Origin: an uncultured Prevotellaceae bacterium
Lineage (GTDB): Bacteria; Bacteroidota; Bacteroidia; Bacteroidales; Bacteroidaceae
DNA: 45,802 nucleotides
Assembly: GCA_902763615.1 (NCBI GenBank)
Contig: CACWSX010000034.1
Span: forward strand, 1 to 45,802
Reading direction: 5' to 3'
How positions within the stretch are numbered: position 1 is the stretch's first letter; each line of letters begins with the position of its first letter. The notes below the pieces were generated by a model, which ran no database searches, was not told the DNA's origin, and was given only the letters and a program-made list of their open reading frames with translations. Positions 983 to 43,985 of this stretch are shown here, piece by piece. A program made the translations under genes and the position numbers.

Positions 983-1056
983 CACATTTACTTTTAATAA
1001 AACATAAAAACTCAGCACAAAATACTCTTTTATCACTATTTTTGGAAATTTTTCAC

Positions 1057-1064
1057 TATATTTG
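1057..1064 (+). promoter_or_regulatory. Promoter -7 box of the lut operon
   Basis: TATATTTG matches TAnnTTTG and lies about 40 bp upstream of the lutA start. The upstream TTTG at 1041 is too close to be a standard -33 element. Confidence 0.5.
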
Positions 1065-1102
1065 TACCCATGAAATAACTTAGAACAAATAATACACAAC
1101 CA

Positions 1103-1840
1103 ATGAAGATAGGACTATTTATCCCCTGTTATGTAGATGTGGTTTACCCTCAAGTGGGTGTGGCCACCTACAAATTGCTGAAGCATTTAGGCCTCGATGT
1201 CACTTATCCGCTGAATCAGACATGCTGCGGACAGCCGATGGCCAATGGTGGATTTGAGAAGCAAGCCATTCCTTTGGCAGAGAAATTCGAGGACATGTTC
1301 AAGGACTTCGACTATGCCGTGGCCCCCTCTGTCAGTTGTACGGCATTCGTCAAGATCAACTATCCCCGATTGCTAAAGGACAAGCATGAGTGTGTGACTT
1401 CCGGAAAGATTATGGATGTAGTGGAGTTTCTGCATGACGTCATTAAAGTGAACCATCCCCTCGGCACCTTCCCTCACAAGGTGAGTCTGCACAATAGCTG
1501 TCACGGCGTGAGAGAGTTAGGTTTGAGTTCACCCAGCGAGGAGCACGTGACGCCATTCAACAAGATCAAAGACCTGCTGAACTTGGTAGAGGGCATTCAG
1601 GTACTGGAGCCCGAGCGTCCCGATGAGTGCTGCGGCTTCGGAGGCATGTTCTCTATAGAGGAGACGGCCGTGAGTGCGCAGATGGGGCTCGACAAGCTTC
1701 AGCGCCACATGAAGACGGGCGCACGATTCATAACGGGTCCCGACTGCTCGTGTCTGATGCATATGGCTGGCATTGCCAAAAAGCAAGGCCTGAATGTAGA
1801 GTTCAAGCACGTTGTGGAAATCTTAGCCGCAGGGCTCTGA
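1103..1840 (+). CDS. lutA: L-lactate utilisation protein A (cysteine-rich Fe-S oxidoreductase subunit)
   Basis: At 245 aa this is the usual length for LutA/YkgE. It has the two cysteine-rich CCG repeats of the family: CCG at residues 41-43 (TCCGQPMANGG) and at 176-178 (DECCGFGGMFS), plus NSCHG in between. These cysteines bind an Fe-S cluster in the LutABC complex, which oxidises L-lactate to pyruvate in the cytoplasm. It is first in the operon, 26 bp before lutB. The gap before lutB contains a short AAAAGTTAAAAGTAAAATGA stretch that resembles, weakly, the AAGTGAA repeats seen elsewhere in this window. Confidence 0.93.
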   Translation: MKIGLFIPCYVDVVYPQVGVATYKLLKHLGLDVTYPLNQTCCGQPMANGGFEKQAIPLAEKFEDMFKDFDYAVAPSVSCTAFVKINYPRLLKDKHECVTSGKIMDVVEFLHDVIKVNHPLGTFPHKVSLHNSCHGVRELGLSSPSEEHVTPFNKIKDLLNLVEGIQVLEPERPDECCGFGGMFSIEETAVSAQMGLDKLQRHMKTGARFITGPDCSCLMHMAGIAKKQGLNVEFKHVVEILAAGL

Positions 1841-1866
1841 AAAGTTAAAAGTAAAATGAAGAAATT

Positions 1867-3246
1867 ATGAGTACAGGACATAGTAAAGCAGCAAAAGCGT
1901 TCTTAAAGAACCAGACCTACGCTAAATGGCACGATGCCACATTCTGGGCTGTCAGGTCGAAGCGTGACAATATGGCATACGGACTCGACGAATGGGAGCA
2001 GTTGCGCGAGAAGGCCTCACAAATCAAGCGCCACACCATCACCCATCTGGATGAATACCTCGACCAGTTTGCCACGAAGGCCGAAGAAAACGGCTGTATC
2101 GTGCATTGGGCAAAGGATGCCAACGAGTTCAACGAGATTGTCTACGGCATTCTGAAGAACCACAACGTGAAGAAGATGGTGAAATCGAAGTCGATGCTGA
2201 CCGAGGAGTGCGGCATGAACCCCTACTTGGAGGCGCACGGCATCGAAGTGGTAGAGACCGACCTTGGTGAGCGCATCATCCAACTGAAGGGCCAGGCACC
2301 CAGCCACATCGTGATGCCCGCCATCCATCTGAACCACGACGATGTGGGCGAACTGTTCGAAGAAAAACTTGGCAGCGAGAAGGGCAACCACGACCCCACC
2401 TATCTGACCTACGTAGCCCGCCTGAGCCTCCGCAACGAGTTTCTGACGGCCGATGCAGGCATGACTGGCGGCAACTTCGGCATCGCCGAGACAGGCGACA
2501 TCGTGGTCTGCACCAATGAGGGTAATGCCGACATGAGCACAAGTTGTCCGAAGCTTCACATCGCCGCCATCGGACTGGAGAAGATCATCCCCAACTACGA
2601 CTGTCTGGCCGTCTTCCAGCGCATGCTCTGCCGAGCAGGCACAGGTCAGCCGACAACCACTTTCACCTCTCATTTCCGCAAGGCCCGACCAACTGCGAAT
2701 CCGATGCATATCATCCTTGTGGACAATGGTCGCAGCGAGTGGATAGGCAACCCTGAGCATTGGGAGAGCCTGAAGTGCATCCGTTGCGGCTCGTGCATGA
2801 ACACCTGTCCGGTCTATCGCAGAAGCGGCGGCTACTCGTACAGCTACTTCATCCCAGGCCCCATCGGCATCAATCTCGGCATGCTCCGCGACCCGCAGAA
2901 ACATTCGGGCAATGTCTCAGCCTGCACACTCTGTCTGTCGTGTCAGACAGTCTGTCCCGTCAAATTGAACCTCGGCGACCAGATCTACCAATGGCGCCAG
3001 CAACTCGATGACTTCGGCACGGCCAACCCGCAGAAGAAACTGATGAGCAAGGGCATGTCGATGCTTTACGGCAGCGAAGGGCTCTACAACCTCGGCACTG
3101 CCCTCGCCCACTGGGCCAACATCATCCCCTCACCTCTCATCAACTGCGGCTTGAATCCCTGGGCTGAAGGCCACAAGATGATGCAATTTCCGAGAGAAAC
3201 CTTCCACACTTTGTGGAAGAAGGGAAAAGTGAACAGTGAAAAGTGA
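1867..3246 (+). CDS. lutB: L-lactate utilisation protein B (LUD domain plus two 4Fe-4S sites)
   Basis: This 459-aa protein has an N-terminal LUD domain (roughly residues 60-290) followed by a ferredoxin-like region. The two cysteine motifs are C304-x2-C307-x2-C310-x3-C314-P and C353-x2-C356-x2-C359-x3-C363-P, typical of 4Fe-4S binding in LutB/YkgF. It acts with LutA and LutC in lactate oxidation. Its last eight residues (KGKVNSEK) are encoded by the AAGTGAA repeat element at 3222-3262, which also supplies the stop codon, so the native C-terminus has probably been replaced or extended slightly. It lies upstream of a four-helix-bundle gene rather than directly upstream of lutC, which is unusual. 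Confidence 0.93.
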   Translation: MSTGHSKAAKAFLKNQTYAKWHDATFWAVRSKRDNMAYGLDEWEQLREKASQIKRHTITHLDEYLDQFATKAEENGCIVHWAKDANEFNEIVYGILKNHNVKKMVKSKSMLTEECGMNPYLEAHGIEVVETDLGERIIQLKGQAPSHIVMPAIHLNHDDVGELFEEKLGSEKGNHDPTYLTYVARLSLRNEFLTADAGMTGGNFGIAETGDIVVCTNEGNADMSTSCPKLHIAAIGLEKIIPNYDCLAVFQRMLCRAGTGQPTTTFTSHFRKARPTANPMHIILVDNGRSEWIGNPEHWESLKCIRCGSCMNTCPVYRRSGGYSYSYFIPGPIGINLGMLRDPQKHSGNVSACTLCLSCQTVCPVKLNLGDQIYQWRQQLDDFGTANPQKKLMSKGMSMLYGSEGLYNLGTALAHWANIIPSPLINCGLNPWAEGHKMMQFPRETFHTLWKKGKVNSEK

Positions 3247-3262
3247 AAAATTTGCTACCGCT
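3222..3262 (+). repeat. AAGTGAA/TTTGCTGCCGC element, left copy flanking the four-helix-bundle gene
   Basis: The copy begins GGGAAAAGTGAACAGTGAA, continues with further AAGTGAA units and ends in TTTGCTACCGCT. It overlaps the lutB stop. The same sequence occurs inverted at 3654-3696, so the gene at 3268 is bracketed by inverted repeats. Other copies are at 11163-11214, 12656-12686 and 13077-13120. Confidence 0.85.
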
Positions 3263-3267
3263 ATAGT

Positions 3268-3645
3268 ATGAGCTACATTCAAGATAGCAATTCGCCTCTA
3301 ACCAAGAAGAGTTACCTCTTCGGGGTAAGAATCGTAAAGATGGTGAAATACATCAAGTGCACGCCAAAAGAGTACGGGATGCTCAACCAAGTATTCCGCT
3401 CAGGCACAGCTATCGGCGCATTAGTGAGTGAAGCGGCCTATGCCCAAAGCCCGGCAGATTTCATCAACAAACTGTCTGTAGCACTGAAAGAGTGCAACGA
3501 GACCCTCTACTGGCTCAATATCCTGAAGGATACAGAGTACTTGCAAGAAAAGGAATACGAAAGCATGAATGCCGACTGCCGTGAGGTTCTTGCCCTTCTG
3601 ATTTCCTCGATAAAAACAACCAAACAAAACATTGAAACAAAATGA
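3268..3645 (+). CDS. Four-helix-bundle protein (S23 / 23S rRNA-intervening-sequence family)
   Basis: The protein has 125 residues and is all-helical in appearance. It carries the hallmarks of the TIGR02436 four-helix-bundle family: KSYLFGVRIVK near the N-terminus, the motif FRSGTAIGALVSEA, then DFINKLSVALKECNETLYWL. The family is named after proteins encoded in 23S rRNA intervening sequences. A related fold is the Avd accessory protein of diversity-generating retroelements, and the general function is unknown. Here the gene sits between lutB and lutC, bracketed by inverted copies of a short repeat (3222-3262 and 3654-3696), which suggests that gene and repeats arrived as one unit. No reverse transcriptase or rRNA is nearby. 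Confidence 0.8.
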   Translation: MSYIQDSNSPLTKKSYLFGVRIVKMVKYIKCTPKEYGMLNQVFRSGTAIGALVSEAAYAQSPADFINKLSVALKECNETLYWLNILKDTEYLQEKEYESMNADCREVLALLISSIKTTKQNIETK

Positions 3646-3653
3646 ACAGGGAG

Positions 3654-3696
3654 AGCGGAAGCAAATTTTTCACTTTTCACTGTTCACTTTTACCTT
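3654..3696 (-). repeat. AAGTGAA/TTTGCTGCCGC element, right (inverted) copy flanking the four-helix-bundle gene
   Basis: The plus strand reads AGCGGAAGCAAATTTTTCAC, then TTTTCACTGTTCACTTTTAC, the reverse complement of the left copy. It ends a few bases before the lutC start. Its reverse complement, including the adjoining CTCCCTGT, matches the insert in the fdtB-like gene almost base for base. Confidence 0.85.
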
Positions 3697-3702
3697 AAAA
3701 TT

Positions 3703-4296
3703 ATGAGTAACAAAGAAGATATACTGAAGAGATACAGGGCGAATGTCAGAGAGAAATTCGACATGCCCGACCTGAGCGACATCAAGGCCATCACGTATGC
3801 CAACCCGCTGGTGCAATTTATCAAGATGACAGAAAGCGTAGGCGGACACGTGATAGAAGTGAAGGAGGAACAAGACATCAACCAACTGGTCAAGGAGATG
3901 TATCCCGATGCCAAGGAGTTTGCCTCGAACCTGCCTGAGATAACGATTGCCACAAGGAACCCGGATACCGTAGGGCGTGCCCGCGACCTGAACGGCACCG
4001 ATGTAGGCATTATCCGAGGCAAGTTCGGTGTGGCCGAGAATGCCTGCGTGTGGGTGCCCCAGACGATGAAGGAGAAGGCCGTGATGTTTATCTCCGAAAA
4101 CCTCGTCATCCTGCTGCCCAAGAGCCAGATTGTAAATAACATGCACGAGGCCTACAAGCGCATCGAGTTCGACGAGACCTACGACGGCTACGGCGTCTTT
4201 ATCAGCGGTCCCTCGAAGACGGCCGACATTGCGCAGGTTCTGGTGATGGGTGCTCAGGCGGCAAGAAGCGCTACAATCCTGCTCCTGCCCGAGTAG
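3703..4296 (+). CDS. lutC: L-lactate utilisation protein C (LUD domain)
   Basis: This 197-aa protein consists of a single LUD domain and has the length expected of LutC/YkgG. Recognisable stretches are TIATRNPDTVGRARDLN and the C-terminal VFISGPSKTADI with LLLPE at the end. LutC is the third subunit of the LutABC lactate oxidation complex. The start at 3703 follows directly on the right-hand repeat copy, so its ribosome-binding region now lies in or next to the element. Transcription from the lut promoter must cross the inserted four-helix-bundle gene. Confidence 0.92.
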   Translation: MSNKEDILKRYRANVREKFDMPDLSDIKAITYANPLVQFIKMTESVGGHVIEVKEEQDINQLVKEMYPDAKEFASNLPEITIATRNPDTVGRARDLNGTDVGIIRGKFGVAENACVWVPQTMKEKAVMFISENLVILLPKSQIVNNMHEAYKRIEFDETYDGYGVFISGPSKTADIAQVLVMGAQAARSATILLLPE

Positions 4297-4532
4297 AAAA
4301 AAGCACCCGTCTACACCAGATACACCTTACGCAACGTTGGCAACGCGGCAACGTTTTTGCGCAAGCCCCTATTTTACAGGGATTGTGGCCTGTTTTATGT
4401 TGCCATTGTTGCCTGCCTATGTAGCATTTGTTGCCTGCCTAGGCCGCAAAATGTTCCCACCTGGGAATCAAAAAGCCCCTCTTATTGCCCAATAAGCGTC
4501 ACTTCTTCAGCCAAAATGCATCGTTTATCGCA
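4297..4532. other. Gene-free stretch rich in GTTGCC/GCAACG words
   Basis: No gene was recognised here. The stretch contains a possible hairpin (CGCAACGTT pairing with AACGTTTTTGCG, about 4332-4373) that could end lut transcription, a TTCCCACCTGGGAA palindrome near 4452, and repeated GTTGCCTGCCTA words between 4400 and 4442. Confidence 0.4.
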
Positions 4533-4592
4533 ATGACACAAAGGGGTCTGGCACCTTTGTGTCCTGAAAGCGTTGCCTCCTAAAGCCTAAAC
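4533..4592. repeat. REP-like hairpin element, family A, copy 1
   Basis: GACACAAAGG and CCTTTGTGTC form a 10-bp stem around GGTCTGGCA. The hairpin is followed by a tail ending in CCTAAAC. The whole 60-bp stretch is repeated without a mismatch at 6447-6506 in the same orientation. Confidence 0.8.
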
Positions 4593-4633
4593 ATATGAAA
4601 AGCGCGCTTGCTAAAAAAATATTCTTTGGATTA

Positions 4634-4665
4634 TTTGGATAATTACCAAAAGAGTATTATCTTTG
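4634..4665 (+). promoter_or_regulatory. Promoter of the DUF5053 gene pair (TTTG-N20-TATCTTTG)
   Basis: TTTG at 4634-4637 and TATCTTTG at 4658-4665 are exactly 20 bp apart, a full match to the Bacteroidetes -33/-7 promoter. It lies about 38 bp upstream of the first start. Confidence 0.75.
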
Positions 4666-4702
4666 CAGCGCAAATGATGTCTAATCTTAAAAGCATTATG
4701 CT

Positions 4703-4876
4703 ATGACAGACAAAGAATTTGCAAAAGAACAGTATGAACAGCTCAAGCGATATGCTGAGTTTGTTTGGCAGTCAATGCCAGATGGTCCTGAAAGGGATGC
4801 AGTCATTGAGGAAATCCTCATTGGCATGAGTGAAGCAAAAAGAAGGTTTGACGAATTAAATGACGAGCAGTTATGA
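4703..4876 (+). CDS. Small acidic helical protein upstream of the DUF5053 gene
   Basis: This 57-aa reading frame begins MTDKEFAKEQYEQLKRYAEF and ends RRFDELNDEQL. It is rich in charged residues and predicted helical, with no signal peptide. It has a strong promoter 38 bp upstream, and its stop overlaps the start of the next gene in an ATGA, so translational coupling is likely. I do not recognise a family. Given the tight linkage, it probably works with the DUF5053 protein. Confidence 0.65.
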   Translation: MTDKEFAKEQYEQLKRYAEFVWQSMPDGPERDAVIEEILIGMSEAKRRFDELNDEQL

Positions 4877-5316
4877 AACAGGTAAATGAATTAATTGGAA
4901 ATCCTCGAATGAGGGAGGAGTTTGAACGTTTTTACAATGCAAAGACGGCTGAAGAACGCAAGGCAATAACTGAAGAGCACAAACGTTGGTTTGAGAGCCT
5001 TTCTGACGAGGAAAAGAAGTTAGAAACAACCCGTATGTATGATTCGGTGCGGGCCGTGCTTGAGGGAGTGAAGGCAAATAATGAAGAACTTGATGCCCGC
5101 CGAATCAGGGAAAAGCTTGGTACTGTGCCCGAGGCCATATCCATGAGTTATGTAGCAAAGAACTATTTCGGAAAGACAAAGACCTGGCTCTATCAGCGTC
5201 TGAACGGCAATAAGGTCAATGGCAAGGAAGCACGTTTCACAGAGTCAGAAGCCCGTCAACTTCAAGAAGCTCTTCATGACATAGGTCATCGCCTGACTTC
5301 TATCATTTTGATTTGA
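4873..5316 (+). CDS. DUF5053 family protein
   Basis: The protein has 147 residues. The N-terminal half is a charged helical region. The C-terminal half contains MSYVAKNYFGKTKTWLYQRL followed by NGNKVNGKEARFTESEARQL, the pattern I associate with the DUF5053 family of Bacteroidetes. That part looks like a helix-turn-helix: a recognition-helix-like segment, YQRLNGN, and a second helix. It may therefore bind DNA, but this is an inference. It is coupled to the 57-aa gene before it and followed by a clear terminator. The pair lies on a segment flanked by two identical 60-bp REP copies. Confidence 0.7.
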   Translation: MKQVNELIGNPRMREEFERFYNAKTAEERKAITEEHKRWFESLSDEEKKLETTRMYDSVRAVLEGVKANNEELDARRIREKLGTVPEAISMSYVAKNYFGKTKTWLYQRLNGNKVNGKEARFTESEARQLQEALHDIGHRLTSIILI

Positions 5317-5338
5317 CAACTCCCGTGAGTTCCTCAAC

Positions 5339-5376
5339 CAAAGAATCGCTATCAACAATGGTAGCGATTCTTTGTA
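5339..5376 (+). terminator. Hairpin terminator after the DUF5053 gene
   Basis: CAAAGAATCGCTA (5339-5351) pairs perfectly with TAGCGATTCTTTG (5362-5374) around a 10-base loop. There is only a short T-run, so it may be a processing hairpin rather than an intrinsic terminator. Confidence 0.6.
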
Positions 5377-5574
5377 TTGTGCGATAAAGAGGCTTGCCAC
5401 CAAGAGGGGAGCAGCTGTTTTCGTTTTTTTCTTCTTTCTTATGACTCCTTTTTGGAAAGAAAAAGTGTGTGGTTCATGTGGCTGTAGTGTATGAAATGGT
5501 AATTTTTTGATAGGATATTTGTGATAGACCCGTTCTTTTTGCCGGATTAGGCCATTTATTAGTTATTCTTTTCT

Positions 5575-5582
5575 TATCTTTG
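5575..5582 (+). promoter_or_regulatory. -7 box upstream of the 129-aa exported protein
   Basis: TATCTTTG lies 25 bp before the ATG at 5608. No clear -33 TTTG is visible at the usual distance. Confidence 0.55.
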
Positions 5583-5607
5583 CAGCAAATGTTTACAAAA
5601 TAAAGAA

Positions 5608-5997
5608 ATGATGATACGACAATTATTCATTCTATTGATAATGCTTGCGTGGTCTATCGCTTTGTTAGCCACGATTCTACCCGCATTCCCCGTCAAGAAT
5701 TTTACCGGCGTCCGCAAAGCCGCCACACGTTCCGACGACAACAGGATGGGTGTTATAGCAACCCTGAGGTACGAAAAACTGTCCGACATGAAAATGCCCC
5801 GCATGAATTCCCAGACCTTTGCAACAGCCAACGGCCTGATGATAGCAGGAAGCCAAAGCCGTGGGGTGGACATATACAATCCACAGTATAACTCCTTCCC
5901 ATCTGTTCCCAATCTGAGCAAGGCACGTGCCATTGCCAAGGCCATCAACGTAAACGAACAAATCTTTGTTGCCGAAGTGGACAAGTTCCCAGAATGA
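5608..5997 (+). CDS. Hypothetical exported or membrane-anchored protein, 129 aa
   Basis: I do not recognise a family. Residues 1-26 form one hydrophobic segment (MMIRQLFILLIMLAWSIALL), either a signal peptide or an N-terminal anchor. The rest is soluble, with the stretch SQTFATANGLMIAGSQSRG and a C-terminal basic helix (NLSKARAIAKAINV). The central region recalls a single kelch-like repeat, but one repeat cannot make a propeller, so the gene may be a fragment of a larger one. Translation could start at either of the two adjacent ATGs. It appears monocistronic, between a -7 box and the hairpin at 6045. Confidence 0.55.
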   Translation: MMIRQLFILLIMLAWSIALLATILPAFPVKNFTGVRKAATRSDDNRMGVIATLRYEKLSDMKMPRMNSQTFATANGLMIAGSQSRGVDIYNPQYNSFPSVPNLSKARAIAKAINVNEQIFVAEVDKFPE

Positions 5998-6044
5998 CTC
6001 ACAAAATAGAAATTTCCTACAATCCGTCAAGAATCATCTTAATT

Positions 6045-6080
6045 ACGGGAGCGGCGAAACTGCCGTTCCCGTATATTTTT
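6045..6080 (+). terminator. Intrinsic terminator after the 129-aa gene
   Basis: ACGGGAGCGGC pairs with GCCGTTCCCGT across a short GAAACT loop, followed by ATATTTTT. It is a GC-rich stem with a T-run. Confidence 0.75.
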
Positions 6081-6168
6081 CACCTCTTTAGTAAAAAAAA
6101 ATCCTTATATTTTTGGGATTCTTGTCTTAACGAATGTTAAGGAAAAATTTTGCAACGAACAAATTTCT

Positions 6169-6397
6169 TGTTAAGTAAAAAATATTTCTTAGTTAAGTGT
6201 TTTTGTCTTTTTAGTTAAGAGTATTTATTTTTTTAGTTAAGTGAATTTTTTTGCACAGTTAAAAGTATTTCTTTTTATAGTTAACAATTTATTTTTTACG
6301 AGTTAAGTGTCTTTTGATGGTCAGTTAAGTGATCATTTTGGAGCAATTAAGTGATGTTTTTGGGGCAGTTAAGCATACGTTTTCGTGTGATTAAGAA
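6169..6397 (+). repeat. Array of 11 units with an exact 22-bp period, core AGTTAAGTG
   Basis: Cores start at 6169, 6191, 6213, 6235, 6257, 6279, 6301, 6323, 6345, 6367 and 6389, every 22 bp without a slip. Most cores read AGTTAAGTG or differ at one to three positions. The 13-bp spacers are T-rich but not conserved. Because 22 is not a multiple of three and TTAA is palindromic, the array puts TAA stop codons in every frame of both strands. It is intergenic, between a terminator and a REP element. The pattern resembles iterons or a phased protein-binding array, with cores about two helical turns apart, but I know of no matching described element. Confidence 0.85.
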
Positions 6398-6446
6398 AAA
6401 AAACACGAATAAAATGGCCAAAAATATTATTTATTACGTTTCTTTG

Positions 6447-6506
6447 ATGACACAAAGGGGTCTGGCACCTTTGTGTCCTGAAAGCGTTGCCTCCTAAAGC
6501 CTAAAC
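6447..6506. repeat. REP-like hairpin element, family A, copy 2
   Basis: This is identical over all 60 bases to 4533-4592 and in direct orientation. The segment between the copies (about 1.85 kb) carries the DUF5053 pair, the 129-aa gene and the 22-bp array. Confidence 0.8.
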
Positions 6507-6585
6507 GTTGCCTGAAAAACCGCCCAAAAAAGCAAGATTTCCCACTTTTTCTCGCGAAAACTATACAAGTTTGCAAATCTTTTTG

Positions 6586-6593
6586 TATTTTTG
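6586..6593 (+). promoter_or_regulatory. -7 box of the orphan MNT locus
   Basis: TATTTTTG lies about 10 bp upstream of the HEPN remnant. It suggests that the original promoter of the toxin-antitoxin pair was kept while most of the toxin gene was lost. Confidence 0.4.
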
Positions 6594-6603
6594 CATCGTC
6601 AAT

Positions 6604-6669
6604 TTACTGAAGAAATGAGATGAAAAATTAGGATTATTATCTCAAAACTTGGATTATCAGCAACAATGA
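6604..6669 (+). pseudogene. C-terminal remnant of a HEPN-type toxin gene
   Basis: Read in the frame that ends at the TGA of 6667-6669, this stretch gives LLKK, a stop codon (6616-6618), then DEKLGLLSQNLDYQQQ. The intact HEPN protein at 45072-45512 ends with LLKQLDKTLEELSQNQAYQQT. The alignment holds across the nonsense codon, so only about the last 21 codons remain and one is mutated to TGA. The ATGA overlap with the following MNT gene is preserved, as in the intact pair. Confidence 0.75.
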
Positions 6670-6971
6670 AGTTTGGACTCAGCGATACAGTTATCAAGGA
6701 ACTGCAGGATGTTTTTCGCCGTCATACGAACATCGAGAAGGTTCTGATATTCGGCTCCAGGTCGAAAGGCAACTTCCGAGCCGGATCTGATATTGACCTC
6801 GCCATCGTTGGCAAAGGCATTGACTATAATCTGTTGCTGACGATACAATGCGAGATTGATGATTTGGATATGCTCTACTCAATTGACCTGCTCGACTATA
6901 ACAAAGAGAAAGGCACGCCCATTGGCGATCACATTGACAGAATAGGCCAGATATTTTACGAGGCAGCCTAA
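6666..6971 (+). CDS. MntA-type minimal nucleotidyltransferase (orphan antitoxin)
   Basis: This 101-aa protein has the polymerase-beta nucleotidyltransferase signature: G30-S31-R-S-K-G and the S-D42-I-D44-L pair that binds Mg2+. In type VII toxin-antitoxin systems such enzymes AMPylate a tyrosine of the HEPN toxin and so silence it. About 86 of 101 residues match the MNT at 44770-45075, so the two loci are recent duplicates or independent acquisitions of one system. Here the toxin partner is reduced to a scar, and the protein may act as an anti-toxin against the intact copy or be evolving neutrally. Confidence 0.85.
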   Translation: MKFGLSDTVIKELQDVFRRHTNIEKVLIFGSRSKGNFRAGSDIDLAIVGKGIDYNLLLTIQCEIDDLDMLYSIDLLDYNKEKGTPIGDHIDRIGQIFYEAA

Positions 6972-7022
6972 TGGTTGTCCAACCTCACAGCGTGCCTGTC
7001 CCCTCGTGACGCCGTGTGAGCC

Positions 7023-8894
7023 CTACATCAGCACTTTGTTTACTGCATTCTTAAAGACATCGAGACCCGAGAAACCAATCTTTTTGAAGGTCTGGTTGCC
7101 CTGTTCGTCGTAGATGGCGTAGGTGGGTATGCTCTCCGATTCATACTTGTCGAGAATGTAGTTGTATTGCTCCCTCGTCAGGTAGTAGTGGTCGCCATCG
7201 ATGTCCTTAATCATCTCCTGCCATGTGGCGAGGGGCGATGTAGGCGAGGTGATATAGACAAACTGGATGTTCTTCCCCTTCAGTTCCTGCTTCCAGGGCT
7301 TCATGGCTGCATGTCCAGCCTTGCAAGGACCGCACCAGGTGGCCCAGATATCGATGAGCACCACCTTGCCCTTGTAACGGTCGAGGATGGTCTGCAGGAT
7401 GTTCTCCGGGGCCACGTCGTCCAGTTCCTTAATGGAGACGTTTTTCTCGCCAACCAGTTGCTGGGCGATGCGCTCCTGTTCGGCCAGATACTCATAATAG
7501 ACGTTCTTACAATCCTCGTTCTCCATCCCATCGAGCGTGGATTTGATCAGGAGTTCGTGGGGTCCGGTAAAAACGAATGCCAAAGCACGAAGGTCTGCGT
7601 TGTAGGCATTCTTCTCCCTTGCATCCGGGTCATAGGAGGCCCCGCTCTCCCAGAAGGCAAGGGCGCAGGGTGATGCCGGTTCGTTCAGATACTTATATTC
7701 GTAATTACGTTCCTCGCCGGTAAGAGCCAGCAGGTCCTTGTTCTTCTGCATCTTCTCATTCTGCTCATATAAATTCTCTTGAGTCCTGTAGACCGTTCCG
7801 TTTTCATCCACGCCGTATTGACTGATATGAAATTCAAACTGACGCGACCATTTTACAAAGTTCTCTTCTGCCGTCATGCAGAGCAGGTCTTTCGTCGCTG
7901 TGGTATATTTGGAAGCCTTAACAGCAGCCACGCGCTGGTCGAAGATGTTTTTCAGGCAATGCAGGCGTTCTTCCTTCGTGTTGCATGCCTTGACCTTGAG
8001 ATAGGTGTCATAGTCGTCTGCGAAATGTCTGAATTCGTCGTAGGCATTAATCAAGTCCATATTGGTCTTAGCCATATAGCCTTTGAAAGCCACAAAAGGC
8101 TTATTGTCGGTGGTCACCTTCATCAGGATGTCAGTCTCCTGTCCTGGACCGATGACGATTTTGGGGAATGCCAATCCCTGAACACCAATCGTTACTTCGC
8201 GCGTTATCCACATGGGAATCTCGACCTTCACGGTACCGTCGTCGGCAAGCGGGAAGAACTTCTGGAAACGCTCCTTGCTGCCCAGTGGTGTGAAACCGCC
8301 TACATAGAACTCCATCTTCATGGCTGGCTTATAGCCCAACATCTTGACTTTGATGGTGGCCACGCCTTTATTGATCTTGGCAGCAGGCAGCGTCTCGTCC
8401 TTGGCATAGTTCACGCCTTTCCAATCGTCGGGCAGCACAATCTTCTGCTGCGTCTTGCCATCGCAGATGTTCCAGAACTTGAAGTCCCCATCGCTATAGC
8501 CCTCTAGGAAGTCCATCTGCTTGGTGTCCTGAGGTACGGGCTTGAAGTGGAGCGCCAGACTGGCCTTTCCGCTCTCTGGCATCCAGAAAAGCGAGTCGAG
8601 TTGCAAGTCGGACTCTTGGGCATTGGTCTTCTCACCGCCTGTGATGCTATACTTCGTACCGTCGGGCGTCTGCAGAAACGAAATTTTGGCAAAGCGAATC
8701 CAACTGCCTGGGCTGTAGTTGGCCTCTATGTGCAGCACCGTCTCCGTCTGCTTCAGTTCCACTTTGGTAATCTCGAAATTACTGTTACTTCTTCCCATAA
8801 AGGCTGTTGGGTTATCCCATACAACCTGTTTCTGCGCTACTGCAGTCATGGCGATGAGGGCAAGAATAGTGATAATAATGGTTTGTTTCATCAT
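7023..8894 (-). CDS. TlpA-like thioredoxin-fold protein, exported
   Basis: The protein has 623 residues and a signal peptide (about residues 1-20, MKQTIIITILALIAMTAVAQ). The N-terminal 480 residues form a large extracytoplasmic region of beta-rich segments and helices, seen in many Bacteroidetes TlpA-like proteins. A C-terminal thioredoxin domain (about 500-623) contains W520-C521-G-P-C524-K and the cis-proline region ESIPTYAIYD. Such proteins are periplasmic thiol-disulfide oxidoreductases, here fused to an unknown N-terminal domain. It is a single-gene unit with a -7 box at 8914-8921. Confidence 0.85.
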   Translation of the reverse strand: MMKQTIIITILALIAMTAVAQKQVVWDNPTAFMGRSNSNFEITKVELKQTETVLHIEANYSPGSWIRFAKISFLQTPDGTKYSITGGEKTNAQESDLQLDSLFWMPESGKASLALHFKPVPQDTKQMDFLEGYSDGDFKFWNICDGKTQQKIVLPDDWKGVNYAKDETLPAAKINKGVATIKVKMLGYKPAMKMEFYVGGFTPLGSKERFQKFFPLADDGTVKVEIPMWITREVTIGVQGLAFPKIVIGPGQETDILMKVTTDNKPFVAFKGYMAKTNMDLINAYDEFRHFADDYDTYLKVKACNTKEERLHCLKNIFDQRVAAVKASKYTTATKDLLCMTAEENFVKWSRQFEFHISQYGVDENGTVYRTQENLYEQNEKMQKNKDLLALTGEERNYEYKYLNEPASPCALAFWESGASYDPDAREKNAYNADLRALAFVFTGPHELLIKSTLDGMENEDCKNVYYEYLAEQERIAQQLVGEKNVSIKELDDVAPENILQTILDRYKGKVVLIDIWATWCGPCKAGHAAMKPWKQELKGKNIQFVYITSPTSPLATWQEMIKDIDGDHYYLTREQYNYILDKYESESIPTYAIYDEQGNQTFKKIGFSGLDVFKNAVNKVLM

Positions 8895-8913
8895 CGGTTG
8901 TTGTTATGTTTTG

Positions 8914-8921
8914 CAAAGTTA
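8914..8921 (-). promoter_or_regulatory. -7 box of the TlpA-like gene
   Basis: The minus strand reads TAACTTTG about 20 bp upstream of the start at 8894. Confidence 0.5.
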
Positions 8922-8980
8922 TCCTTTTCTTTTGTAATAGCAACATGCCTCGTTTACAATTTTCAGACATTTTGTGTTCT

Positions 8981-9124
8981 TTAACCTCTTTTTTTAGTTA
9001 CTAACAATTTTCTTATAGAAAGGACGTAGCCACCATATTGTTTCTCGTCTTCGAGGAGGAACTTGGGAGAATGGATGCGGGCTCCTTCCACCTTATTATA
9101 TATATGACTCAGACGGGACGGCAT
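8981..9124 (-). other. Possible 47-codon reading frame or gene remnant
   Basis: A short minus-strand frame starts MPSRLSHIYNKVEGARIHSP and ends LLVTKKRG before a TAA. It contains NKVEGA, which also occurs in the neighbouring DKNYY protein, and the shared 19-bp DNA word lies at about 9088 and 9280. It could be the tail of a lost gene or a small peptide. Otherwise I see nothing in 8922-9194. Confidence 0.25.
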
Positions 9125-9194
9125 TTTCAATGAGTCCTCGTTCACTCAGAGAATGGCGTCCCTAGTGAGTCTATACCGAAAACTTAGAGGCTGG

Positions 9195-9815
9195 TTATTT
9201 CAATAGCTTACCTCTGTAATAAGCATTGAAACTGTCTTGGCCATAACCATTTCCTGTATATTTGAACGAAGAGGCTACGGCTCCTTCCACCTTATTCCCA
9301 TGATAGAAGACGGAGAAGGAATCCTTGGCATAGCCGCCTTCCAATACCTTGAAATTAGACGCCATACATCCCTTTAACTTTTCACCAAAATAGTAGACAT
9401 TGAAGGAGTCTTTAGCATAACCACCACCCAGATCTACAAACGAGGAGGCCATCGCGTCTATCTTCTTGTCACCGTAGTAGACATTGAAGTTGGTCTTGAA
9501 ATAACCTTTGTGTGCTGACATCGGCTCATCCATCTCCCCGTGCCTGAAATGATGCGAGGCAGGACGCTCTTTCAGACGGAACGTCGAGGGGTCGACATTC
9601 TCGAGGACACGACCATTCAGATACACATTCATTCTGTCTTTTGCGTAGCCGTAGCCTAAATCAACAAAACTCTGGGTATCAACCTGCATCATAACTTCGT
9701 CGCAGAAAATCACCCGACCGTGAATAATCTCATATCTCTGGGCCTGACTCATCGACGTCCATCCCATCATTGTCACCAACAGAAGTGACCTGAATAAAAA
9801 TGCTGTCTGTTTCAT
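9195..9815 (-). CDS. DKNYY-repeat exported protein
   Basis: About 206 residues with an N-terminal signal peptide (MKQTAFLFRSLLLVTMMGW onward). Four or five repeats follow, of the form GYAKDSFNVYY-G-K-h..A..SF..LG, for example near residues 50, 115, 147 and 180. This is the DKNYY repeat, found in exported proteins of unknown function in Bacteroidetes and Fusobacteria. I took the second methionine (9815) as the start because it begins the signal peptide. A minus-strand TATCTTTG at 9849-9856 fits as promoter. The gene stands alone. Confidence 0.7.
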   Translation of the reverse strand: MKQTAFLFRSLLLVTMMGWTSMSQAQRYEIIHGRVIFCDEVMMQVDTQSFVDLGYGYAKDRMNVYLNGRVLENVDPSTFRLKERPASHHFRHGEMDEPMSAHKGYFKTNFNVYYGDKKIDAMASSFVDLGGGYAKDSFNVYYFGEKLKGCMASNFKVLEGGYAKDSFSVFYHGNKVEGAVASSFKYTGNGYGQDSFNAYYRGKLLK

Positions 9816-9848
9816 AATCGTATACATTTAGAATAACTTTTGATGGTG

Positions 9849-9856
9849 CAAAGATA
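9849..9856 (-). promoter_or_regulatory. -7 box of the DKNYY gene
   Basis: The minus strand reads TATCTTTG about 34 bp upstream of the start. Confidence 0.55.
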
Positions 9857-9914
9857 GGATATTCCCTACAAACTGAAAAAAGAAAATCCCTATTCGTTCG
9901 TGGGGAATTTCCTA

Positions 9915-10547
9915 TTACAATTTGAGATATGATTTGAGAGCAGGGATCCAGTCTTCGTTGTTCTGAGGGCAGAGGGTGTGGATGCCGAGGGCTTCGGCAG
10001 CTGCGCAGTTGTTGGGACTGTCGTCGATGAAGAGGGTCTCATCGGCTGTGGTCTGCTGACCTTCGAGCATCATGCGGAAAATCTCTGGCGAGGGCTTCAT
10101 CACCTTGCACTCGTAACTCAGGTAGAGGCGGTCGAAATAATAGTCGATGGAATGATGGCCGCCATCGAACGCTGGGGAGCAGGCCCATTGCATCATAAAG
10201 GGGTTGGTGTTTGAAAGCAGACAGACCTTATAGCCCTGCTGGCGCAGACGAAGCAACATATCGAGGTTGCGCTGGGGAACGGACTCCACATATCCGTGCC
10301 AGGCATAGAAACACTCGTCCATCGTCAACTGACGGCCGATAATTTTGCTCAGTTCCGCACGAAACACTTCAGCAGAAATCCTGCCACTCTCGAGGTCGCC
10401 GAAGATGCCGTGCTGATGAAAGGCATCAAGGTGCTGACGAGCATCTGTCAGTCCGATTTCCTCGAACCGCCGGATGGCATTCTCGTAACTCAAGGCGATG
10501 ACCACACCACCGAGATCGAACGCGATGTTATGGCTATTGGAAGGCAT
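9915..10547 (-). CDS. HAD-superfamily hydrolase (YihX-like)
   Basis: At 210 aa it has the HAD motifs in order: FDLGGVV at residues 10-16 (nucleophile D11), [16 protein letters not shown] with the conserved lysine, and LFIDDSPNN. The DLGGV form, with Gly in place of the second Asp of DxD, is common in the YihX/haloacid-dehalogenase-like branch, so phosphatase activity cannot be taken for granted. It is the last gene of the minus-strand run and overlaps the end of the aminotransferase gene by 14 bp, which argues for co-translation. It could dephosphorylate a sugar or nucleotide intermediate, but the substrate is unknown. Confidence 0.85.
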
Positions 10548-11715
10548 TGAGAAGGGTGATGATTTGGGTGATTTCTTCGTCAGTCAGAGCCTGATGGCAG
10601 GGGATAGAGAGCTCTTGGGCGTGAATCTGCTCAGTGACGGGAAAAGATTGAAGATTGAAAATTGAAGATTGAAGATTATAGCAGCGCTGGCGGTGAGGCG
10701 GAATGGGATAATGAATCACAGTTTCTACGCCATTTTCCAAGAGATACTGCTGGAGTTCGTCGCGACGAGGACTGAAAACGGGGAAGATGTGCCAGACACA
10801 GTCGCGTGCAGCGAGGCCAGAACGAGAATACGTTTCGTTGCCATCGGGAAGTAATCTCACGAGGTCGTTGCTTACTTCTCGTTCGTAGCGGGCAGCAATG
10901 TCCTTGCGACGCTGGTTGTCGGCATCGAGATGCTTCAGTTTTACGGAGAGGATAGCGGCTTGGATCTCGTCGATGCGCGAGTTGCGGCCAAGATGATCGA
11001 AGACATATTTCTTTGCGGAACCATAGTTGCCGAGAGCCTCGATGGTCTTGGCGAGCTCATCGTCGTTGGTGGTCACAGCGCCAGCATCGCCCAGCGCACC
11101 AAGATTCTTGCCCGGATAGAACGAATGGCCTGCAGCATCGCCAAGAGAGCCGGTTCTTTTAAGGGAAAAGTGAACAGTGAAAAGTGAAAAATTTGCTGCC
11201 GCTTCCCTGTAAACACAGCCGTGGGCTTGGGCATTGTCCTCGATGAGTTTCAGGCCATGCTTGCGGCAGATCTCCCCTATCCTATCCGTATAGGCACAGC
11301 GGCCGTAGAGATGGACTATCATGATGGCTCGGGTACGAGAGGTGATGGCCTGCTCGATAAGGGCATCGTCGATTTGAAGCGTGGCTGGCGAGGGCTCTAC
11401 GAGGACGGGCTTGAGGCGATTCTCAGTGATGGCGAGAATGGAGGCGATAAAGGTATTGGCAGGCACGATGACTTCATCGCCTGGAGTCATCACTCCCATC
11501 TCGATATAGGCTCGCAGAATCAGCGTTAAGGCATCCAGTCCGTTGGCACAGCCGATGCAATGTCTGGTGCCGATATACTGGGCATAGGCCTGCTCAAACT
11601 TCCGCGTAGCCTCACCTTTGAGATACCAGCCAGAGTCGAGAACCTCGCTAATCGCCTCGCGGATTTCAGCATCGTAGAGGTCGTTGATTCGTTTCAGATC
11701 CAAATACTTAATCAT
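10534..11715 (-). CDS. fdtB: DegT/DnrJ/EryC1 sugar aminotransferase, FdtB-like, with two in-frame repeat insertions
   Basis: This 393-aa PLP enzyme follows the DegT family closely: [13 protein letters not shown], the [11 protein letters not shown] motif, and [18 protein letters not shown] with the PLP-binding K203. FdtB converts dTDP-3-keto-6-deoxyhexose to the 3-amino sugar, using the product of FdtA, which is encoded two genes upstream. Two stretches do not belong to the family. Residues about 169-184 ([14 protein letters not shown]) come from the AAGTGAA element at 11163-11214. Residues about 346-358 ([13 protein letters not shown]) come from ATTGAAG repeats at 10641-10681. Both keep the frame. 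The first lies between the conserved Asp loop and the PLP-lysine loop, so activity could be affected. The gene overlaps both neighbours. Confidence 0.85.
10641..10681 (-). repeat. In-frame ATTGAAG-type short repeat in fdtB
   Basis: About four degenerate copies of AAGATTGA/AAAATTGA follow one another. On the coding strand they give [12 protein letters not shown] near residue 350, where family members have a variable loop. Confidence 0.75.
11163..11214 (+). repeat. AAGTGAA/TTTGCTGCCGC element inserted in frame in fdtB
   Basis: The plus strand begins GGGAAAAGTGAACAGTGAA and ends TTTGCTGCCGCTTCCCTGT. It carries AAGGGAA and TTCCCT at its edges as short inverted ends. Over about 45 bases it matches the reverse complement of the right-hand element of the four-helix-bundle gene (3645-3690). 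Confidence 0.85.
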
Positions 11716-12650
11716 AGCTCGTATTCGTAGATATCGTAACAGAGGCCTCTGGCCCCATAGCCCTCCTTCTGGAAGACCAGATTCTCGTTCAGTCCGCTGC
11801 CGTCAGGATGCTCCGTAGAGCGTCCGAAATCGAAGTACGGGTAGTTGTGATAGTCGCTGAATATCCTGTCATAGAGCAAATCAATTACGCCAGACTTCTT
11901 TCCCTCAGGCGTGGCAGAGCTGTACTGGGCATGGACCACCTGAGGAGAGACATAAAGCACGACCCCCCCCAGCACCTCACCATCCTTTACGGCCTGATAT
12001 AGTTGGATATTCTCAGGGAAACGACCATGCAGCAATTCGATTTCCTGAATCGAATGAACAGGTTTTACACCATGTTTGGTCATCAGATTGTCTGTCAGTA
12101 CTGGCCAGAAAGCAGCATAATCGTCTGAACGCTCCACGCAGACACCTGCTTTCTGAGCACGTACGATGCCACGACGCCGCACCCGTTCCCATCGCAGTCC
12201 TGCCTGCAGGAAGATGTTTGTGGAATAGTCTCTCGCTACGATACGGGCATGACACTCATGATAAAGCGCATAGAGATCCTCCTCGGCAGACAGACGATGA
12301 TAGACCCAGGGAATGGCTTTGTAAGTAACATGGCGCAAACCCTCAGCACGAAGGTTTACGTTCATCTCATGAAAGAGGGTCATGGTCTGAACGATTGTCA
12401 GATGAGAACTCATCAACAATCCGCCATAGGTCAGTCCCTGATGGGAGCAGAGCGTGTCGCCAGACACATTGGCTGGCAGTACTGCCAACAGCCTACTTCC
12501 TTCATAAAACATCAAGGAGTGGTCACTGAAGCGGTCAGCGTGATAATCCATGTATCGACGATCGAAAAGGAACGTGCCGTTCTTCGACTCTACCACGAAC
12601 TGATTCCATTCGTCAGCTTTATCAGGGGTGTATCGTCTGACTTCTATCAT
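11712..12650 (-). CDS. GNAT / FemAB-like N-acyltransferase
   Basis: About 312 residues. The C-terminal half has features of the GNAT/FemAB acyltransferase fold: [20 protein letters not shown], then [20 protein letters not shown] and [20 protein letters not shown]. Such proteins transfer acyl or aminoacyl groups to sugars or amino sugars. Position between fdtA and fdtB suggests it may acylate the 3-amino sugar in place of the left-handed-beta-helix acetyltransferase FdtC, but that is an inference. I chose the start at 12650 ([10 protein letters not shown]), because the seven extra N-terminal codons of the longer frame come from a repeat element. It overlaps fdtB by ATGA. Confidence 0.75.
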
Positions 12651-12655
12651 CGGCG

Positions 12656-12686
12656 GCAGCGAATTATTCACTCTTCACTTTATTGA
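12656..12686 (-). repeat. AAGTGAA/TTTGCTGCCGC element at the fdtA/GNAT junction (diverged copy)
   Basis: The minus strand reads AAAGTGAAGAGTGAATAATT followed by CGCTGCCGC. It supplies the last residues and stop codon of FdtA (KVKSE) and sits just before the start of the acyltransferase. Confidence 0.7.
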
Positions 12687-13074: not shown

Positions 13075-13076
13075 CC

Positions 13077-13120
13077 GTGCGGCAGCAAATTTTTCACTGT
13101 TCACTTTTCCCTTTTACCTT
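13077..13120 (-). repeat. AAGTGAA/TTTGCTGCCGC element at the purT/fdtA junction
   Basis: The minus strand reads AAGGTAAAAGGGAAAAGTGA, then ACAGTGAAAAATTTGCTGCC and GCAC. It starts at the purT stop codon and ends three bases before the fdtA ATG, so it fills the whole intergenic space. Confidence 0.85.
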
Positions 13121-14316
13121 AATTTCGCATAGGGATCAGTGCCGAGAACGGTCTTTGCCAATCGTTTGGCCTTATCGCGCAGGGCATTGACATCATCACC
13201 CACCTCTCCGTAACACAACACGACACCCATACGACGGCCTTTGTGAGCCTCGGGCTTGCCAAAGATGCGGATACGTGTACGGTCTTCCTTGAGGGCATCC
13301 ACGAAGTTGTAGTCGAGCAACGAACGGTCTACTGGCGTAGAAGCCTCCTTGGGAGAAAGAATCACAGCCGAAGCACCAGCATGCTCCAGATGAATGCCAG
13401 CAATGGGCAGACCCATCACAGCACGGAAATGGAGTTCGAACTCGCTCAGATTGGTCGTATGGCCGAGCGTTACCATACCTGTATCGTGCGGACGAGGACT
13501 CAGTTCGGAGAAGATTACCCCACCCTGCTTGGTCAGGAAGAACTCCACACCCCAGATACCAGCACCCGTCAAGGCCTTCGTCACCTTATCGGCCATCATC
13601 TGAGCCTGTTTCAGAGCCTCGTCGCTGATCTTATAGGGTTGCCAGGACTCACGATAGTCGCCCGATTTCTGCACGTGTCCGATAGGCGGGCAGAACAATG
13701 TTGGCCATCCGTGCTGCTGAGTGACGGTAAGGAGTGTGAACTCAGAATCGAAGTCGATAAACTCCTCGATGATCACTTCCTTCACATCGCCACGCGAACC
13801 TTCCATCGCCTCCCTGAAAGCTGTCTCCAGCTCGCTGTCATTGTGCACGTAGCTCTGACCGTGACCGCTTGACGACATCAGGGGCTTGACCACACAAGGG
13901 AAGCCGATCTCATCAGCAGCAGCCTTGAACTCCTCGAAGGTCTTGGCATAGAAATACTTCGCCGTGCGCAATCCTAATTCCTTGGCAGCGAGGTCACGAA
14001 TGGCACGACGGTTCATCGTGTAGTTGACGGCACGAGCCGAAGGCACCACCTGAATACCCTGTTCCTCAAACTTGAAGAGGCGCTCCGTACGGATGGCCTC
14101 GATCTCAGGCACGATGATATCAGGCTTATGCTTGTTGACGACAGCCTCGAGGGCATCACCATCGAGCATTGAGAACACTTCACGCTCGTCAGCGACTTGC
14201 ATCGCGGGCGCATTGTCATAACGGTCGCAGGCAATCACGTACTGGCCTGCACGCATGGCGGCTATCACGAACTCCTTGCCGAGTTCTCCAGAGCCTAAAA
14301 GCAAGATCTTCTTCAT
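13114..14316 (-). CDS. purT: Formate-dependent phosphoribosylglycinamide formyltransferase 2
   Basis: The 400-aa length and layout match PurT, an ATP-grasp enzyme that makes formyl-GAR from GAR, formate and ATP in purine synthesis. Visible are [20 protein letters not shown] at the N-terminus, the glycine-rich [13 protein letters not shown] loop, [18 protein letters not shown], and [22 protein letters not shown]. The stop codon overlaps the repeat element at 13077-13120, and the C-terminus (DPYAKLR) looks normal. It overlaps the sigma-like gene upstream by ATGA and is embedded among sugar-nucleotide genes, which is unusual for purT. Confidence 0.93.
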
Positions 14317-43427: not shown

Positions 43428-43985
43428 CTACTCAGCAATGATTTGTTTATTGGTCTGACGGATGTTGACCTTTTCGAAGTGGTTCAGTCGCTCTACGATC
43501 TGACTCAATGGGGCAGCGGTGTTCCACTTGGTGTACAGGCGGATATGACGGGATTGCTCATTGCGGTAGTCCACTTCCAGATGGTAATGGTCTGCCAGCT
43601 CGCCGAGTATCTGTTGCAGCTCTGCATTCTCGAAGGTGCGGATGGTGTCGGATTCCGGGAGTTGAGAGTTGAGAGTTGAGGGTTGAGAGGTGGCTACCGC
43701 CTCCGTCTCTTGACTCCTGACTTCTGTCTTCTCACTCCTCATGATATGCACGGCTGCAAAGGTAAGGCCCGACAGCAGGATGATGCCGACGAACATGGCG
43801 GCTATCTTCCAGAGCCTCCTGGCTTTGTCGCGCTTGGTATTCCGCTGGATAAAGCCTTCTTCAGCTTTCACCATCAGCTCGTAGTATGCCCGCATGTCGG
43901 GGTCGCTCATCAACTGTTGCAGTTCCTCGTCCGTATAGTCCTGCGGACGCTCTGTCATACGGAGCAGATCTTCGATATCTTTCAT
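43428..43985 (-). CDS. Short anti-sigma-like membrane protein (DUF4974-type C-terminus, no FecR domain)
   Basis: 185 residues. Cytoplasmic N-terminus about 1-60 (LLRMTERPQDYTDEELQQLM), one membrane segment about 62-80 (KIAAMFVGIILLSGLTFAAV), then a linker and a DUF4974-like periplasmic domain (AELQQILGELADHYHLEVDY onward). The usual FecR domain of about 100 residues is absent. The linker is built from two in-frame short repeats (43652-43690, 43705-43740), giving RSEKTEVRSQETEA and QPSTLNSQLPES. It is coupled to the sigma gene by ATGA and followed by the OMP gene after 2 bp. It probably controls the sigma factor in response to the OMP. Confidence 0.75.
   Translation of the reverse strand: MKDIEDLLRMTERPQDYTDEELQQLMSDPDMRAYYELMVKAEEGFIQRNTKRDKARRLWKIAAMFVGIILLSGLTFAAVHIMRSEKTEVRSQETEAVATSQPSTLNSQLPESDTIRTFENAELQQILGELADHYHLEVDYRNEQSRHIRLYTKWNTAAPLSQIVERLNHFEKVNIRQTNKQIIAE
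43652..43690 (-). repeat. In-frame GTTGAGA short repeat in the anti-sigma gene
   Basis: AGTTGAGAGTTGAGAGTTGA and GGGTTGAGAGG code on the minus strand for QPSTLNSQLP. Period about 7 bp. Confidence 0.75.
43705..43740 (-). repeat. In-frame AGTCAGGAGT/GAGAAGACAG short repeat in the anti-sigma gene
   Basis: The minus strand reads GAGTGAGAAGACAGAAGTCA then GGAGTCAAGAG, encoding RSEKTEVRSQETE just after the membrane segment. It is related to the mrp insert at 26586. Confidence 0.65.

Follow-up and report, generated by a model that had tools for sequence, protein, structure and literature searches.

An S23-type four-helix-bundle gene between inverted heptamer arrays in a Prevotellaceae lut operon, read as a mobile element resembling rRNA intervening sequences

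The stretch of DNA analysed here (the window) comprises 45,802 nucleotides of contig CACWSX010000034.1 from an uncultured Prevotellaceae bacterium (assembly GCA_902763615.1), whose 3.46 Mb genome is fragmented into 117 contigs. At the genes lutB and lutC it carries an element that consists of two inverted repeats, here called arms, and a single gene encoding a four-helix-bundle protein (Table 1). The arms are 43 nt long and 95% complementary, with AAGTGAA-type heptamers and TTTGCTNCCGCT; read from outside to inside, the run of AAGTGAA and its variants comes first and is followed by AATTTGCTNCCGCT. A preliminary description, made from the DNA letters and a list of open reading frames (ORFs), had placed an S23-type gene between lutB and lutC, bracketed by inverted copies of an AAGTGAA repeat of which the right one ends just before lutC, and both statements were confirmed. 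That the element lies between the two host genes held for the gene and the right arm, but the 3' end of lutB lies within the left arm, which supplies its last codons and its stop codon. In the predicted RNA fold of the element the arms are paired and the gene lies in the loop (-161.3 kcal/mol, z -8.6).

Table 1. Positions of the element, its host genes and further arrays in the window.
Feature	Position	Strand	Remarks
lutB, host gene upstream of the element	1867..3246	+	
Left arm	3220..3262	+	heptamer array AAGGGAA AAGTGAA CAGTGAA AAGTGAA, then inner motif AATTTGCTACCGCT
Four-helix-bundle gene, 125 aa, PF05635 / TIGR02436	3268..3645	+	
Right arm	3654..3696	-	complementary to the left arm; outer end reaches ~3700
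lutC, host gene downstream of the element	3703..4296	+	ATG at 3703
GATTGAA heptamer array, another family, further on in the DegT protein	10644..10677	+	inside DegT coding sequence 10534-11715 (-)
Gene-less arm copy	11157..11203	+	inside DegT aminotransferase coding sequence 10534-11715 (-), in frame
Shorter, diverged gene-less copy	12653..12681	-	stop/start junction of (-) genes; end set by eye
Gene-less copy	13079..13122	-	junction of genes 13114-14316 (-) and 12664-13104 (-)
GAGTTGA array, third heptamer, ending in the inner motif of the window element, GGCTACCGCC	43659..43701	+	

The protein scored 84.3 bits against Pfam PF05635 (23S_rRNA_IVP; cut-off 33.8) and 96.1 bits against NCBIfam TIGR02436 (cut-off 24), exceeding the curated cut-offs of both models. 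In the window family the gene is under purifying selection. The predicted fold matched S23 proteins; its match to the retroelement protein Avd was less close, with 14% identity in the structural alignment. Unlike the Avd of diversity-generating retroelements (DGRs), the window protein was not listed for the NCBI Avd equivalog model NF033474 at E 0.001, and two of its relatives scored 33 and 31.2 bits, below the 80-bit cut-off of that model. A Pfam scan of ten window proteins found no reverse transcriptase among them. Structures of S23/IVP proteins have been solved, and we know of no function assigned to them. One relative, BT_0352 of Bacteroides thetaiotaomicron VPI-5482, shares 53% identity with the window protein, and its crystal entry contains five chains.

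The lutB-lutC junction was surveyed in relatives from the genus, probably Prevotella, with one genome per species. After removal of six duplicates the 60 loci gave 54 junctions, which were assigned to classes by eye (genomes and loci carry G and L numbers). At seven junctions the gene is present between the same arms (G000, G031, G041, G104, G297, G307 and G361), and two are remnants, with only the right end in G032 and only arm copies in G066. Gene-less arrays, often of another unit, were found at 20 junctions, 12 were empty with 4-11 nt between lutB and lutC, and 13 had other spacers of up to 169 nt. The order of lutB, four-helix-bundle gene and lutC without repeats, which the preliminary description had named, for distant genomes, as evidence against a mobile unit, was not encountered among these 54 junctions; all seven that hold the gene have arms. 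For three array families seen at lutB-lutC, tested in 17 genomes, further arrays are abundant at other places of the genome concerned. Genomes without the respective family at lut carry it as well: 175, 63 and 56 AAAGGTA arrays were counted in G136, G031 and G103, and 102 and 42 CATTGAA arrays in G099 and G031. By eye, the gene-less palindromes at lutB-lutC of G103 and G374 (L126 and L137) are made of ACGGATT-type and CAGATTACG-type arrays.

In four relatives the window element lies at another locus. The similarity covers both arms and ends at their outer ends in G219, G323 and G121; in G333 it comprises the gene and the right arm, upstream of what by eye is a lutA-like start, and the left side is rearranged. 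Fifteen of the 22 window-type loci with printed flanks are not at lutB-lutC. Arms and gene form one unit that is found at different loci, and empty and gene-less versions exist; the mobile unit proposed earlier is supported by the empty sites, by the arm-gene-arm unit at other loci and by the gene-less copies. LutC and the four-helix protein rank the relatives differently (93% identity for LutC and 82% for the element protein in G307, 77% and 86% in G104), which fits repeated arrival or exchange of the element. Inspection of 22 flank pairs by eye gave no clear target-site duplication, the outer ends being repetitive. As the lutB ends often resemble the array unit, local seeding and a codon-replacing array look alike.

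A 24-nt arm core, with at most 3 mismatches, was found at 22 places in the host genome, both arms of the window element included, versus 0 for the reversed control. Of the three gene-less copies proposed earlier in the window, that starting at 11157 (96% complementary to 3654-3700) and that starting at 13079 (91% identical to 3655-3698) were verified. The one at 12653 was verified in part, with 61% identity over 44 nt and a likeness to the arm, judged by eye, only across the first ~30 nt. The copy reported near 11163 is indeed a gene-less arm copy, but it is not intergenic. In the DegT protein it lies in a loop behind the sequence AHGCVY; compared with 7 of the 18 aligned homologs, this loop has 14 additional residues. 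The remaining 11 have shorter inserts of other kinds at this loop, and the insert of G037 resembles a different heptamer array (19 of 21 loci were aligned). A CACCCAT heptamer array is present at window positions 27807-27847, and a similar unit brackets the PF05635 gene L001 of the host genome, the right array of which, by eye, falls within the initial codons of a parE/gyrB-like gene.

The flanks of PF05635 genes in general were compared by aligning each upstream flank to the reverse-complemented downstream flank, a score of at least 30 being counted as positive; flanks exchanged between loci and the direct orientation served as controls. The genus scan covered 146 loci. Excluded were L006, for which no hit was obtained, and one locus with a flank shorter than 150 nt, and 24 window-type loci were counted apart. 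The resulting 120 loci include the window locus and six loci from the listing of window-type proteins, the rest coming from the E-value-ordered matches listed, 80 hand-picked. Score 30 was reached by 101 of the 120 loci; the controls gave 5.6% for the 4759 swapped pairs and 5/120 for the direct orientation. An initial run, most loci of which were re-used in the larger set, had given 24 of 36 loci (swapped 6.3%, direct 0/36). All 24 window-type loci scored at least 41. The genes lutC and DegT of the genus, used as controls, had arms at 0 of 56 loci (60 loci, 56 usable). A predominant lack of flanking repeats in homologous genes, which the preliminary description had named as contrary to its reading, was thus not what these loci showed.

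At the level of the phylum 11 of 30 loci had arms (swapped 1.8%, direct 2/30), and in named genomes from many phyla 47 of the 77 usable among 80 loci (swapped 1.8%); here 13 of 77 scored in the direct orientation as well, for which the length of some arrays is the probable reason. Outside Bacteroidota, as judged by record title and with the Ignavibacteriales locus L350 included, arms were found at 13 of 23 loci, a count that has no separate swapped control; the arm-bearing loci include Terriglobia, Geobacter, Oryzomonas, Nitrosomonadales, Desulfobacterales and one Pirellula record. On cyanobacterial plasmids (16 of 30 records covered) 8 of 16 loci had arms (swapped 5.8%, direct 1/16), and two of the eight have cas6 and cas4 as neighbours on either side. 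Among the PF05635 matches listed for the host genome four of six have arms. The exceptions are L005 and L006, the latter scoring below the Pfam cut-off. The repeat around PF05635 genes differs from subfamily to subfamily. We concluded that inverted arrays of short units accompany the gene family in general, a point missed in the preliminary description; the pattern is strong within the genus and, although weaker elsewhere, is still well above the controls there. Four-helix-bundle genes on cyanobacterial plasmids were seen in clustered regularly interspaced short palindromic repeat (CRISPR) gene sets (L459, L466 and L469; cas6-cas4 twice, cas10-cmr3 once), and in Terriglobia (L353) a PF05635 gene lies between identical inverted arrays of ~19 CAGTTCT units.

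Across the 101 positive genus loci the median arm is 37 nt long, and the best period is 7 in 51, 8 in 30 and 9-12 in 20. In the left arm, read on the gene strand, G outnumbers C at 89 loci, is outnumbered at 9 and equals it at 3. Both neighbours are co-directional with the gene at 83 of 99 genus loci. The upstream stop codon falls between -60 and +30 nt from the left outer end at 95 of 99 loci (window family 23/24), and the next ATG between -45 and +30 nt from the right outer end at 78 of the 93 with a co-directional ORF (window family 18/18), distances that derive from crude ORF calls and have no random-site control. The genus elements lie mostly in sense orientation at stop/start junctions. 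A crude ORF call placed 42 of 61 sampled arrays between ORFs and 19 inside them. The inner motif GCTNCCGC is only rarely combined with other units: it stands at the inner side of 6 of 200 arms and at the outer side of none, and is present in one of the 61 sampled solo arrays, that at window positions 43659-43701.

Arms differ in unit between genes, and within one element the unit is common to both arms. When elements were compared with each other, the arms matched (score at least 30) in 36 of 36 pairs at a protein identity of at least 85%, in 98.5% of 130 pairs at 75-85% and in 71% of 176 pairs at 65-75%. The fraction was 28% at 55-65% identity, 9% at 45-55% and 0.1-0.2% below 35%. The same trend was obtained with the window family left out (91% of 23 pairs at 75% identity or above). 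Since the arm unit tracks protein identity, these comparisons show arms and gene to have been inherited together. Such tracking does not by itself show that the protein recognises the array.

Intervening sequences (IVS) of 23S rRNA with an S23p ORF are described in Leptospira, Coxiella and others in PMC4990558, where Ralph and McClelland 1993 are cited for a role of the ORF in IVS mobility. Like an IVS as portrayed there, the window element has one S23/IVP gene between complementary ends able to form a long stem, and its presence is sporadic. Unlike an IVS, it lies between protein genes and not in rRNA, its arms are tandem 7-8-nt arrays with a unit that varies by element, gene-less copies are dispersed, and most PF05635-bearing genomes of the genus have several family genes among the matches listed. 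Rfam gave no match at E<=1 for window positions 1000-14000. We read the window element as an IVS-like mobile element living outside rRNA, and possibly it belongs to a class of its own rather than to the IVS kind.

PMC4679880 reports TAACTGA heptamer arrays in Beggiatoaceae, cyanobacteria and some Bacteroidetes, in sets that often end just before a start codon, and proposes a post-transcriptional network for these repeats. PMC4692102 reports GGGAATC arrays in Xanthomonas and GGGGATT arrays in Nostoc, and 70 and 75 cases of inverted heptamer-array pairs are given for Xanthomonas. One of the two papers finds no evident transfer mechanism, and in the other mobile elements were generally not associated with the arrays; neither text contains 'S23' or 'four helix'. 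The arrays described here resemble those known ones in their tandem 7-nt units and mostly intergenic position, but differ from them in being the arms of a gene-bearing element. In the open-licence PMC literature, which lacks subscription papers and most preprints, no paper was seen that links PF05635/S23 with heptamer arrays. What is already known are S23 genes in rRNA IVS and heptamer arrays; what appears to be new is their joining. Short dispersed inverted units without an enzyme are also typical of miniature inverted-repeat transposable elements (MITEs) and repetitive extragenic palindromic (REP) repeats. Unlike these, the element has its own conserved gene and variable tandem-array ends instead of fixed termini. 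The fixed terminal inverted repeats that mark MITEs and insertion sequences were not found, as the arms vary in unit and length.

The IVS of rRNA are cut out of the RNA by RNase III. We know of no explanation for their movement, nor of a cause given for heptamer arrays, although such arrays have been described several times. The short tandemly repeated repetitive (STRR) sequences of cyanobacteria are reportedly (Mazel) heptamer repeat arrays, and telomerase-like or LINE-like (long interspersed nuclear element) growth of arrays is an existing idea. Our preferred explanation, to which we assign a probability of about 0.5, is a compact mobile element of IVS-like plan in protein operons, with two inverted arms (a 7-8-nt tandem array plus an inner motif) around one S23/four-helix-bundle gene, and with the following mode of movement. 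The protein would be a toroidal homopentamer like its Xanthomonas relative and would bind the single-stranded array, each subunit taking about one unit. Read-through from the host operon would give an RNA with arrays at both ends, and the protein-RNA complex may then be handed to an unlinked copying enzyme. As a first guess this enzyme could be a reverse transcriptase, given the likeness of the fold to Avd, which partners the DGR reverse transcriptase. The copy would subsequently enter another junction, and solo arrays would arise as partial products or as products lacking the gene. Binding of array RNA from operon read-through by the protein, and delivery of this RNA to the copying enzyme, are suggested by the combination of arms of about five units, a presumably five-fold protein with an Avd-like fold, the sense orientation and the position between cistrons.

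A wider proposal, which we hold tentatively and at slightly less than even odds, is that S23/IVP genes throughout bacteria form the coding core of one minimal class of mobile elements with self-made 7-8-nt array termini. The pentamer would read its own array, and new array families would arise with new proteins. The orphan heptamers of cyanobacteria, Xanthomonas, sulfur bacteria and Bacteroidota would be solo products, and rRNA IVS would be members that landed in rRNA. A gene between inverted arrays of its own unit would be one rule joining S23 proteins, IVS and heptamer arrays, which makes all of them testable: the array family would predict the protein, and the protein the array.

Several results weigh against the RNA-copied element. 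Integrase, transposase and reverse transcriptase are all absent inside the element (their genome-wide co-occurrence was not searched). Among the arm mismatches of 158 loci, G-U wobble was of the sense type in 155 cases and of the antisense type in 194, and this lack of a sense excess speaks against long selection on an RNA hairpin. An RNA hairpin under selection, considered as a candidate, was set aside on these numbers. The arm score was missed by 19 of 120 genus, 19 of 30 phylum, 30 of 77 many-phyla and 8 of 16 plasmid loci.

Array numbers, moreover, follow PF05635 numbers only loosely, with presence and absence of the gene scored among the matches listed. Nine arrays were found in 660 kb of 13 genomes without a PF05635 hit, all of them in G018, G038, G048 and G085, the other nine genomes having 0 arrays in 560 kb; 14 genomes with at least two hits had 46 arrays in 800 kb. 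The first nine genomes alone had given a cleaner contrast (0 arrays in 400 kb versus 30 in 400 kb). Over 31 genomes the Spearman coefficient was 0.40 (p = 0.026) and the rank test gave p = 0.079, so a simple correlation between gene and arrays was set aside as suggestive only. G018 contains 19 arm-core copies and 4 arrays in 40 kb with no PF05635 among the matches listed. For this genome (L418, L419) a lost gene, a missing contig or supply in trans are options. Likewise, G074, G034, G110, G216 and G291 have 58-88 core copies and no window-type protein among the matches listed. As to whether the repeat co-occurs with the gene family, a check suggested earlier, all 22 genomes with a listed window-type protein of at least 72% identity have the arm core (3-119 copies), but so do 205 of the 374 others (227 of 396 overall), hence the core does not need the window-type subfamily. 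In G078 and G089, with a window-type protein at 67-68%, no arm core was found. Recognition of the repeat by the four-helix bundle, as suggested earlier, stays conjectural, and so does a role of the protein in the movement; gene-less arrays are present also in genomes without a PF05635 hit, among them G018.

The main rival that remains is a purely DNA-level origin of the arms, in which replication slippage and quasi-palindrome template switching both create the arms of an ordinary small mobile or resident gene and keep them similar, as functionless drift. It agrees with units that differ freely among paralogs of one genome, with mismatches free of RNA-wobble bias and with arms decaying faster than protein identity. 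We nevertheless consider it unlikely, given the non-repetitive inner motifs common to both arms and to dispersed gene-less copies, the period of 7-8 nt in 81 of 101 arms, the G excess of the left arm and the two unrelated control genes of the same genomes, which have no arms. Less probable still is that the element is a passenger of the MITE type, with the four-helix bundle as cargo, and that an unlinked transposase (e.g. REP-associated Y1) reads the arm hairpins and moves it in trans. Elements of one genome have unrelated arm sequences, which is hard for a single sequence-specific transposase, and the arms around family genes in many phyla, the purifying selection in the window family and the sense-strand bias also argue against such a passenger, even though it would account for inverted ends, gene-less copies and a four-helix bundle as the sole gene.

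The protein might instead belong to a host regulatory module, binding array RNA at stop/start junctions and controlling downstream translation, with the other arrays as regulon sites. The closeness of the elements to start codons and the predicted fold with paired arms are what such a module would lead one to expect. The sporadic presence at lutB-lutC in the genus, the same unit before other genes in other species and the arrays scored inside ORFs, one of them in frame in DegT, make us rate it as quite improbable, below the transposase-moved passenger. Chance low-complexity sequence or an assembly artefact deserves almost no credence: short A/T-rich repeats are common in the genus, but the swapped-flank, direct-orientation, reversed-pattern and Markov controls refute this explanation, and the pattern is present in many separate assemblies.

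Three further features of the window were recorded. An exact direct repeat of 60 nt (4533-4592 and 6447-6506) with a GACACAAAGGGGTCTGGCACCTTTGTGTC hairpin flanks a DUF5053 gene at 4873-5316. An A/T-rich array at 6163-6338 has a 22-nt period around AGTTAAGTG, in seven overlapping 44-nt copies, and a small nucleotidyltransferase gene of the Polbeta/MNT type is located at 6666-6971.
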